Shown here: piece by piece, positions 8,015 through 55,998 of the stretch
Numbering within the stretch: the stretch's first letter is position 1
Layout: every line of letters begins with the position of its first letter
Source of the DNA: Bacillota bacterium
Lineage (GTDB): Bacteria; Bacillota; Sulfobacillia; JAJZYS01; JAJYTV01
DNA: 64,000 nt
Assembly (NCBI GenBank): GCA_021799275.1
Contig: JAJZAT010000004.1
Location: 1 to 64,000 of the forward strand
Direction of reading: 5' to 3'
Made by a program: the position numbers and the translations under genes
Notes under the pieces: generated by a model
The model's database searches: none
Seen by the model: only the letters and a program-made list of their open reading frames with translations
What the model was told of the DNA's origin: nothing

Positions 8015-8023
8015 TGCTATAAT
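8015..8023 (+). promoter_or_regulatory. Extended -10 promoter of the T-box/aspS transcript
   Basis: TGCTATAAT is a perfect extended -10 (TGn plus TATAAT). No convincing -35 is visible, which is usual for extended -10 promoters. It would start transcription near 8030, exactly at the 5' edge of the T-box leader. Confidence 0.65.
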
Positions 8024-8027
8024 GGCC

Positions 8028-8276
8028 CAAACGATGATGGAGACCAGTAGCGGCCAAAGCCGGGACGAAGAGAGCCGCCGACGCTGCGATGGCGGTTCCC
8101 GGCCACTGCGAAGACACTCCGGAGCGCCCGGCCGAAGGACATCTCGAGGCCGAGCCGTAACGGCCCACGTCACGGGCAGCAAAGAGGCCGGCCAGAAGCC
8201 GGCAAAGTGCGGTGGCACCACGACGCCCCCTCGTCCGCACAGGACGTGGGGGCTATGTCTTCGCGGAGGTGGTGCC
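8028..8276 (+). promoter_or_regulatory. T-box riboswitch leader, probable Asp specifier (GAC)
   Basis: The 250-nt untranslated leader ends with the T-box sequence itself, GGTGGCACCACG at 8211-8222, whose bulge pairs with the uncharged tRNA acceptor end. It is followed by a terminator-type hairpin at about 8224-8253 (CGCCCCCTCGTCC / GGACGTGGGGGC) that would compete with the antiterminator. In the stem I region (about 8115-8135) GCGAA-GAC-ACTCCGGAG resembles the specifier loop, placing GAC, an Asp codon, in the specifier position; this matches the downstream synthetase. Uncharged tRNA-Asp should therefore raise aspS expression. The T-box call is firm; the specifier assignment is inference from spacing. 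Confidence 0.8.
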
Positions 8277-9575
8277 ATGCGCAGAGTTCTCGCAGCCGCA
8301 CTCGACGAGCATGTGGGCGAGGAGGTCACGCTGCAAGGGTGGCTCAGTCAGGTGCGCCGCCTCAGGGGCGTCGCGTTCCTGATCTTGCGCGACCGCAGCG
8401 GCACGGCTCAGGTGGTGGTCCGGGACCCCGGGGAAATCGAGCGCGTTTCGGATCTGCGCCACGAGTCGGTGCTCTCGCTGACAGGCCGTGTGGCGCCGCG
8501 CGGCGACGGGCGTCCCGGCGCGGAGCTCGTGGACCCTGCCCTCGAGGTCCTCGCCGCGGCCTCGGAGCCGCCGCCCTTCGACCTCTTCCGGCCGACGCTC
8601 GAGCTGCCGCTCCCGACCCTGCTCGACTACGCGCCGCTGTCGCTGCGCCATCCGAGGCGCAGGGCGGTGTTCGAAATCGCGGCTGCCCTCGCCCACGGTT
8701 TCCGCGAGAGCCTGCGTCACCTGGAGTTCGTCGAGATCCACACGCCCAAACTGGTCGCAGCCGCCACCGAGGGCGGTGCGAACGTCTTCCCGGTCGGCTA
8801 CTTCGACCGTACCGCCTATCTGGCGCAGAGTCCGCAGTTCTACAAGCAGATGATGGTCGGCGTCTTCGAGCGGGTATTCGAGGTCGGCCCGGTGTTCCGC
8901 GCGGAGCCGCACGACACGCCACGCCACCTGAACGAGTATGTGTCGCTCGACGCGGAGTTCGGGTTCATCGACGACCACCGCACGGTGATGGTGGTGCTCC
9001 GAACGGTCATGGCGGGCATGCTCGACGCCGTGCGCGACGAAGCGGCCAGGGCTCTCGCGCTGCTGGAAGTCCCGATGCCCGCGCTCCCCGATTCCGTCCC
9101 CACGCTTCATTTCACCGAAGCGCAGCGACTGCTCCAGGAGATGCGGGGCGAACCTGGCCCCAGCGAGGACCTTGCGCCAGCAGACGAACTCGCCCTTGGC
9201 GCCTGGGCAAAGAAGGAGTTCGGCTCCGACTTCCTCTTCGTCGAAGGCTATCCCGCATCTGCGCGCCCCTTCTACACCCACCCGGATCCATCGAGGCCCG
9301 GCTACACCCTTGGCTTCGACCTCCTCTTCCGCGGCCTCGAGCTCGTCACCGGCGGCCAGCGTCTGCACCGCTACGAGGACTACCTCGCGGCGCTGCGGCA
9401 GCGCGGTCTCGACCCGGGCCCGTTCTCGGGCTACCTCCAGGCCTTCCGCTATGGCATGCCGCCGCACGGTGGCTTCGCGATCGGCCTCGAGCGCTTCGTT
9501 GGGCGCCTGATCGGCCTAAAGAACCTGCGCGAAGCCACGCTCTTCCCGCGCGATCTCAGTCGCCTCGACCCCTGA
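8277..9575 (+). CDS. aspS: Aspartyl-tRNA synthetase, archaeal type (probably non-discriminating)
   Basis: 432 residues: an N-terminal OB-fold anticodon-binding domain (about 1-110) then a class II catalytic core with motif 2 FEVGPVFRAEPHDTPRHLNEY and motif 3 GGFAIGLERFVGRL. The length and absence of the bacterial insertion (GAD) domain make it the short archaeal/eukaryal-type enzyme (AspS2) that in many species charges both tRNA-Asp and tRNA-Asn, the latter then amidated by GatCAB. Whether it is non-discriminating cannot be settled from sequence alone. ATG 8277 has GGAGG about 8 nt upstream and directly follows the T-box terminator. Confidence 0.9.
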   Translation: MRRVLAAALDEHVGEEVTLQGWLSQVRRLRGVAFLILRDRSGTAQVVVRDPGEIERVSDLRHESVLSLTGRVAPRGDGRPGAELVDPALEVLAAASEPPPFDLFRPTLELPLPTLLDYAPLSLRHPRRRAVFEIAAALAHGFRESLRHLEFVEIHTPKLVAAATEGGANVFPVGYFDRTAYLAQSPQFYKQMMVGVFERVFEVGPVFRAEPHDTPRHLNEYVSLDAEFGFIDDHRTVMVVLRTVMAGMLDAVRDEAARALALLEVPMPALPDSVPTLHFTEAQRLLQEMRGEPGPSEDLAPADELALGAWAKKEFGSDFLFVEGYPASARPFYTHPDPSRPGYTLGFDLLFRGLELVTGGQRLHRYEDYLAALRQRGLDPGPFSGYLQAFRYGMPPHGGFAIGLERFVGRLIGLKNLREATLFPRDLSRLDP

Positions 9576-55359: not shown

Positions 55360-55379
55360 GCGGTCCTCCAAAGAAATGG

Positions 55380-55992
55380 CTCGGGTGGAAACCTGCGAGG
55401 TAAACGCTGCGGCTTAGGTCCAGCTGGCTTTCCCAACCGGGGCTCCGGCCGTCGCCGGCCGTCGGTTCCCCTTTCGCCCCGGTGCGCCATGTCGCCATAG
55501 GCGCTGCTAGATTGCCACTCAGGCCGCACTGTAATCCCTCGCACGTCTCGCTCTTGGCGAACAGCCTAGGAGTTTTCCTCGCGGCGCGTGTGTTCCCTTA
55601 GCCTCTTTTGCCCGACGGGTTTCGTTCGGCTGCAACATCGCGCCGGGGCCCCGGACGCCAATGTCGGAACCCGACTTCCCCCCGCCAAGCTCAAGGCAGG
55701 CTACGCTGCACCAAGCGCCTGGCCATGCCCAGCACCTGATACAGGTACAACTCCAAGCCGCAGACGCGGTCCGCAGGCGGACTCTCCACGAGCTTGGGCC
55801 TCCGCGGAGGATGGGTGCGTTGCCATATGCCATTATGGGTGCCCCAACCTCCTCCGCTCCCAGCACCAACCCGGACTTGGCGTTCCGAGCCAGCACCAGG
55901 AGGTTCATCGATGTGCCCTTCGGCGGCTTTTTAGGCCCGCCCTAGGGGAGACACGTCCGGCTAGGATACTGCTCCACCCGAAAACATGAACA
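55380..55992 (-). ncRNA. OLE RNA (ornate, large, extremophilic RNA), predicted
   Basis: A 740-nt gap between ispA and oapA has no recognisable protein on either strand but is strongly structured on the minus strand. Helices: GGCGG/CCGCC around 55921-55945, AACCTCCT (55905-55898) pairing with AGGAGGTT (55853-55846), the palindrome CCTCCGCGGAGG at 55799-55810, and GTCCGC-AG-GCGGAC at 55769-55782. The gene order ispA - RNA - oapA - dxs - tlyA - argR - recN is the known OLE locus, and an extended -10 promoter at 55999-56007 would give a transcript of about 610 nt, the known length. The assignment rests on context and structure; the exact ends are estimates. Confidence 0.8.
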
Positions 55993-55998
55993 ACAGCA

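Follow-up and report, generated by a model that had tools for sequence, protein, structure and literature searches.

How might a leader RNA govern the gene for a second, archaeal-type aspartyl-tRNA synthetase, and which tRNA does it read? The question arises from a locus in the window (the whole 64,000-nucleotide stretch of DNA analysed here, taken from a 3.14-Mb, 97.5% complete Bacillota genome), where a T-box leader precedes aspS2 on the + strand. T-boxes ahead of extra aspartyl-tRNA synthetase (AspRS) genes have precedent in Clostridium acetobutylicum, where a T-box stands before one of the three aspS genes (PMC2494555). A sequence-only reading of the present locus had proposed a T-box with a probable GAC specifier and a terminator, controlling a short archaeal-type aspS rather than the usual bacterial one, and had raised the possibility that the enzyme also charges tRNA-Asn. 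Here we address three points: (i) which tRNA the leader senses, (ii) which tRNA the enzyme is likely to accept, and (iii) whether control is likely to act at termination or at the start of translation.

Results

The leader of aspS2 is a T-box with a GAC specifier

We compared 501 bases with the Rfam T-box model RF00230, which matched positions 8025-8241 (+) end to end (model positions 1-219 of 219) at 66.8 bits and E 2.1e-14. A default Rfam scan misses this leader because its score lies under the 93-bit gathering cut-off of the model; the genome's 12 T-box matches all fall short of 93 bits. The T-box of the sequence-only reading is nonetheless matched over the whole element, and the leader folds better than 197 of 200 shuffled versions (z -2.5). 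An extended -10 promoter-like element, TGC-TATAAT, lies at 8015-8023 (+; TATAAT 8018-8023) and recurs in the leaders of the other four congeners carrying aspS2, and a consensus scan found no full promoter at the leader. We note that the default Rfam scan of the window returned a single element, an OLE RNA (RF01071, 388 bits) at 55369-55993 (-). It is flanked by an ispA-like ORF and by a membrane ORF of 195 aa adjoining dxs (names assigned by eye), and an ispA/dxs neighbourhood is the usual setting of OLE RNA.

The RF00230 alignment delineates the parts of the leader, all on the + strand. Stem I is of the long form (8032-8125) and carries the motifs AGUA (8046-8049), AGAGA (8069-8073) and GAA (8110-8112), followed by the specifier codon GAC (8113-8115). 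Stem III (GCCGGC/GCCGGC) occupies 8187-8203. The antisequestrator/antiterminator (8207-8240) consists of the pairings GUGCGG/CCGCAC and ACGA/UCGU around the bulge UGGCACC (8213-8219), so that the strand GUGCGG-UGGCACC-ACGA (8207-8223) is able to pair with UCGU-CCGCAC (8231-8240). The box named by the sequence-only reading corresponds to 8211-8222, and UGGC at 8213-8216 fits the GCCA end of a tRNA with G73.

The specifier was placed by the model and by the lower helix GGAG (8039-8042)/CUCC (8117-8120), with A as the next base. The specifier loop is one base short relative to the model (GAA-GAC-A-CUCC), and the GAA anchor alone would therefore read ACA (Thr). We prefer GAC because the helix anchor, the Rfam alignment, the downstream gene and the five congeners agree: all five congeners carrying aspS2 have GAC, our helix-anchored caller returned the same codon, and a GAC specifier ahead of an AspRS gene is a match of codon and gene. 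The covariance model, run as a check on the codon first proposed, placed no other in the specifier loop. The genome's own tRNA-Asp has anticodon GUC and G73 and ends in GCCA, to which the bulge UGGC is complementary; the two tRNA-Gly genes seen have U73 and end in UCCA. In one relative (G119), tRNA-Asn has G73 as well, so the choice between Asp and Asn rests on the specifier. T-box, specifier, discriminator match and gene family, together with the start-site complementarity described below, are plain in the sequence itself. From these features we predict that the leader binds and responds to uncharged tRNA-Asp, which is probably the tRNA sensed.

AspRS2 is a second AspRS and is probably specific for tRNA-Asp

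The gene aspS2 (8277-9575, +) encodes a 432-aa archaeal-type AspRS (AspRS2), as first proposed: the protein scores above the NCBIfam cut-offs of both TIGR00458 (381.6 bits vs 368.4) and NF003483 (547 bits vs 353). Its best PDB match by sequence is the non-discriminating AspRS2 of Thermus thermophilus (1n9w/3kfu), and it aligns over nearly its full length with 1n9w and 1b8a, with no large insertion. The genome has four PF00152 matches: the aspS2 product; L013 and L016, which NCBIfam names as a bacterial AspRS and an AsnRS, respectively; and L014, an open frame of 492 aa. aspS2 is a second AspRS gene beside that of the bacterial AspRS. A search for asnS, gatCAB and a second aspS, as suggested with the sequence-only reading, thus found AsnRS, GatB and the bacterial AspRS in the genome. 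Four stretches match Asn_synthase; three of these, scanned as domain pieces, resemble glutamine-hydrolysing asparagine synthase below its cut-off. In two relatives, G088 and G089, no bacterial-type AspRS score occurs among the matches listed, which include at least three PF00152 matches in each genome (best PF00152 E 2.7e-90 and 9.3e-88, respectively, among the matches listed). AspRS2 therefore appears to be the sole AspRS there, among those matches, and the aspS2 leaders of both genomes (L033 and L032) read GAC.

We then considered the tRNA range of the enzyme through positions 26 and 85 (numbering of the Thermococcus kodakarensis enzyme) in the anticodon domain, which we take to decide acceptance of tRNA-Asn, with His plus Pro as the permissive pair. 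This pair occurs in 61 of 122 AspRS2 sequences (129 rows minus five duplicates and two fragments; the 122 include two short sequences). In this genus, four of the five sequences have Ser/Arg and the fifth has Asp/Arg, and Ser or Asp together with Arg is found in no other of the 122. A Pro does occur in the genus sequences one residue beyond the equivalent of position 85, so a shifted loop could still work. Since both residues of the permissive pair are replaced, AspRS2 of this genus is probably specific for tRNA-Asp; we hold with moderate confidence that it is a tRNA-Asp-only enzyme.

These results bear on a different reading of the locus, in which the T-box mainly senses tRNA-Asn and AspRS2 makes Asn-tRNA together with GatCAB, as in Deinococcus and Thermus. 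The closest structural relative, the T. thermophilus enzyme, is non-discriminating, the NCBIfam name of the family is aspartate--tRNA(Asn) ligase, GatB is present, and AAC is the specifier in four of 47 confident aspS2 T-box calls elsewhere (L046, L076, L082 and L085). However, the five congeners all read GAC and none AAC, and positions 26 and 85 are occupied here by S or D and by R, as opposed to H and P in half of the sequences compared. The AsnRS weighs against it as well, as an organism that has this enzyme should be able to do without aspS2 in making Asn-tRNA. We consider sensing of tRNA-Asn improbable, and charging of tRNA-Asn, which the sequence-only reading had left open, is not favoured by the AsnRS or by the replaced residues.

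T-box-led aspS2 genes are spread over several phyla

We identified AspRS2 matches at E <=1e-60 in 53 of 154 genomes of the class; the six weakest of these (36-40% identity) are probably AsnRS. In an order-level search of 15 genomes, aspS2 was confined to this genus, with five of its six genomes positive and none of four in the family's other genus or of five others of the order. The remaining genome of the genus, G052, is 76% complete and gave no AspRS2 match. A simple pattern detected a T-box core upstream in 27 of the 30 loci first examined. A scan of named genomes, limited to the best 80 of 543 relatives, extended the range of T-box-led aspS2 to Chloroflexota, Actinomycetota, Clostridia and Paenibacillaceae, and the pattern found no T-box core at the aspS2 genes of Nonomuraea and Cryosericum in this set. 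The pair of T-box and aspS2 is not peculiar to Firmicutes, and the idea that the enzyme had been newly brought under Firmicute control is not supported, given the occurrence of the pair in Chloroflexota and Actinomycetota.

An AspRS2 tree was built from 95 of 129 rows after 34 had been dropped as duplicates, fragments or near copies. Nearly all rows fall into a 51-row clan with support 100 or a 41-row group with support 95; the other three, of family f32, lie beside the clan. Besides this genus, the clan comprises families f35 and f37, Chloroflexota and Actinomycetota, together with some Cryosericota, Caldisericota and Acidobacteriota. A T-box core is present in 45 rows of the clan, where GUGCGG is the prevailing kind, and in 32 rows of the 41-row group. 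A quick tree, with a Thermomicrobiales neighbour at support 91, had suggested transfer of aspS2 from Chloroflexota into the genus. We dropped this reading: the AU test does not reject a clade that joins the genus to the Bacillota families f35 and f37 (p 0.57), nor one that joins it to f37 only (p 0.73), and trees constrained to a Bacillota grouping score higher. The AU test leaves neighbour relations within the 51-row clan without resolution.

Control of aspS2 is probably translational

Downstream of the bulge, folds show an alternative GC-rich hairpin at 8225-8253 (+), followed by UAUGUCUU, which has five U in eight bases and no U-run. A terminator scan found no terminator-like site on the + strand at this hairpin, its one call being on the other strand, and no run of three T occurs within 12 bases after the hairpin in any of the five congeners. 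By eye, ten of the 11 other T-boxes of the genome have at least three consecutive T right after the hairpin; the exception is a cysE-like locus (L002, gene named by eye) with a poor tail. The box and hairpin of the sequence-only reading are thus in place, whereas its terminator is doubtful, given the missing U-run in all five congeners.

The start region suggests another target. The stretch 8265-8277 (+) holds the Shine-Dalgarno (SD) sequence GGAGGUG and the spacer and ends with the first base of the start codon. The T-box strand UGGCACCAC (8213-8221, +), a proposed anti-start-site, is a perfect 9-bp Watson-Crick complement of 8269-8277, which covers the SD end, the spacer and the A of ATG. 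As controls we took 116 other start regions with an SD before them (mechanical ORFs of at least 150 aa); none forms a helix that long with the T-box strand, and one has a lower duplex energy. The complement is kept in all five congeners carrying aspS2. In whole-leader folds with 25 coding bases, the helix between T-box and start site forms in five of five congeners. With eight coding bases it forms in four of five, the exception being the window's own leader, in which the SD and start find other partners, namely the specifier strand and the 5' side of Stem I. Fragment folds that begin at the T-box also give the helix in four of five. Covariation cannot test this helix, because the T-box and the SD are both constrained.

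We next forced the antisequestrator in these folds. The unpaired probability of spacer and start rose in all five congeners, from 0.02-0.22 to 0.28-0.42. For the SD bases, the corresponding values were 0.38, 0.52, 0.39, 0.29 and 0.26 in free folds and 0.32, 0.56, 0.26, 0.08 and 0.18 in forced folds; release of the SD by the antisequestrator was not seen in forced whole-leader folds and was not consistent in fragment folds.

We also observed that 8102-8116 of the window, the specifier strand with GAC included, is complementary to 8256-8270, just before and in the SD. This pairing appears in the short-leader fold and is absent from folds with more coding sequence, and congeners have shorter versions of the complement. 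Either chance or a role as internal anticodon mimic could account for it.

Leaders across the tree differ in their T-runs. Judging T-run position relative to the SD by eye, we found that 41 of the 45 leaders with a T-box core in the 51-row clan, which includes this genus, have no four-T run before the SD, as against six of 32 in the 41-row group; the other 26 of these 32 have one. Within Chloroflexota, L104, L110, L111 and L136 have the same kind of core yet a run of at least four T.

On the present folds and alignments we regard control of aspS2 as probably translational, which is likelier than a terminator because of the missing U-run in all five congeners and the helix that would mask the start site. 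The leading alternative keeps the same T-box and the same sensing of tRNA-Asp and takes the hairpin with its tail as a weak intrinsic terminator, so that control would be by transcription attenuation and the start-site complement a by-product. The hairpin does compete with the antiterminator, as in classical T-boxes, a tail with five U in eight may permit weak termination, the cysE-like T-box of the same genome is also poor-tailed, and most leaders of the 41-row group carry a run of at least four T. Against this stand the lack of a T-run throughout the congeners, the silence of the terminator scan on the + strand, a start-site complement longer than in any of the control start regions, and the T-box:start helix in the whole-leader folds of all five. 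Attenuation is a possibility to which we assign a clearly smaller share of belief.

In the probable translational mechanism, which we favour with some reserve, a tRNA-Asp-sensing T-box with a long Stem I raises AspRS2 output by unmasking the start site when Asp-tRNA-Asp is low. The leader would read tRNA-Asp through its GAC specifier and the UGGC bulge that fits G73. As long as uncharged tRNA is lacking, the hairpin 8225-8253 would take up the antisequestrator's 3' half; the T-box strand 8213-8221, thus freed, would pair with 8269-8277, and this helix would mask the SD end, spacer and start codon. Uncharged tRNA-Asp on the bulge would hold the antisequestrator (8207-8240) and leave the start site open, so that a shortage of Asp-tRNA-Asp would yield more of the second, archaeal-type AspRS.

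It is very unlikely that the leader is instead a decaying or constitutive remnant without regulatory effect. Its score under the Rfam cut-off, the second AspRS gene in the genome and the short specifier loop would suit a remnant, but the specifier, the bulge, both alternative structures and the start-site complement are kept in five species, whose AspRS2 proteins are 75-91% identical to the window's enzyme.

Several Sulfobacillus-like relatives carry GGC specifiers

We applied an anchored script to 124 non-duplicate aspS2 loci, of which 91 gave a candidate specifier and 47 a confident one (score of at least 20). The 47 calls were GAC 32, GGC 4, AAC 3, ACA 3, ACG 2, GAT 1, GTG 1 and CGA 1. Seven odd calls were re-read by eye, L046 by Rfam alignment, giving GAC for L043, L079, L086 and L115, AAC for L046 and GGC for L037. 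After re-reading, the totals are GAC 36, GAU 1, GGC 5 and AAC 4, with L172 left without assignment. Three of the four genomes with AAC-reading leaders belong to family f39.

GGC is found in seven of the 12 leaders of the Sulfobacillus-like family f37 (L022, L023, L026, L030, L036, L037 and L091), a count that includes L022 and L023 although their scores of 19 and 18 lie under the confident threshold. Rfam alignments back GGC for L022, L026, L030, L036 and L091, and by eye the AGUA motif is broken in L022, L023, L036 and L037. The GGC leaders keep the bulge UGGC, which fits G73 of tRNA-Asp and not U73 of tRNA-Gly. A tRNA-Asp, always with GUC and G73, was found in five of the seven genomes (G096, G113, G114, G116 and G119), and a DNA search found none in G093 and G115; a tRNA-Gly was seen in G119 only, with U73. 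We judged a tRNA-Gly reading unlikely, given the U73 of tRNA-Gly in G119 and the UGGC bulge. By eye, no glycine gene was recognised downstream of aspS2 in the six GGC loci whose sequence continues past it, and no consistent complement of GGC was seen elsewhere in the leader. The GGC leaders may reflect tRNA-Asp bound with a G-U pair at the middle codon position, a specifier loop that has become relaxed, or a genuine Gly signal.

Two further features of these relatives were noted. G116, G113, G119 and G114, whose aspS2 leaders all read GGC, carry an unusual tRNA-Asp (L255, L256, L257 and L258, respectively), in which the acceptor strand is GGTCCCG and the anticodon loop UUGUCAG; G096, also GGC, has the usual tRNA-Asp. 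In addition, 11 Sulfobacillus-like aspS2 leaders (L022-L026, L030, L031, L034 and L036-L038) have the anti-SD sequence CCUCCA in the loop of stem III, and it pairs with the SD in four of the 11 predicted folds (L025, L030, L036 and L038).

Discussion

The observation made by the sequence-only reading is confirmed, and its interpretation was half right, with partial support. A T-box ahead of aspS2 is a kind already known; the interest of this one lies in a probable tRNA-Asp-only AspRS2, probable start-site masking, and the GGC relatives. The transamidation operon of C. acetobutylicum has a two-codon Asn/Glu T-box. As in the aspS genes of that organism, a T-box here stands before one of several AspRS genes, and unlike the T-box-led extra aspS genes of Firmicutes such as C. 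acetobutylicum, the present leader lacks a U-run (PMC2494555).

Translational T-boxes were proposed in 2005 for actinobacterial ileS, the first example to those authors' knowledge (PMC1262725). Like the present leader, those T-boxes have no terminator, and their start site is thought to be hidden by a sequestering hairpin (PMC1262725, PMC7583486). Their Stem I is in most cases short or intermediate, and they sense tRNA-Ile, whereas the leader described here has a long Stem I with AGAGA and probably senses tRNA-Asp; a few translational T-boxes with a long Stem I are mentioned in the review (PMC7583486). As described in PMC4206432, an archaeal-type second AspRS makes Asn-tRNA in T. thermophilus and Deinococcus radiodurans. 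The present genome resembles theirs in having such an enzyme beside another AspRS and AsnRS, with GatCAB there and GatB here. Their AspRS2 charges tRNA-Asn, whereas here the residues taken to be permissive are replaced, and asparagine-synthase-like genes are present.

Our search of open-licence papers found none on a T-box with an aspS2 specifier, nor on a T-box riboswitch in Sulfobacillus. Judged by title and start of abstract, none of the matches listed for T-box, aspartyl-tRNA synthetase and Shine-Dalgarno treats the combination. According to the description of TBDB (PMC7778990), its class I leaders, taken from Rfam and GeConT3, were extended and then cut back to a 3' end of five U; its class II model was applied to Actinobacteria and to those class I hits whose Stem I is truncated. 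Under such rules, leaders of other phyla that have a long Stem I but lack a U-run may be under-collected.

Taken jointly, a T-box strand that serves as anti-start-site, a tRNA-Asp-only AspRS, and GGC leaders of Sulfobacillus-like relatives that read tRNA-Asp form a speculative combination that we think doubtful as a whole. If it were true, nine bases would choose between tRNA and ribosome, the tRNA-Asp-only AspRS and its switch would form a dedicated Asp-tRNA rescue unit, and a GGC specifier would read tRNA-Asp with a middle G-U pair, against the rule of three Watson-Crick pairs. The GGC specifiers offer a test of whether T-boxes truly need three such pairs. For this genus, the locus would tie a spare synthetase to one tRNA pool, that of Asp and not Asn, in a lineage where specifier, tRNA range of the enzyme and mode of control can be compared side by side.
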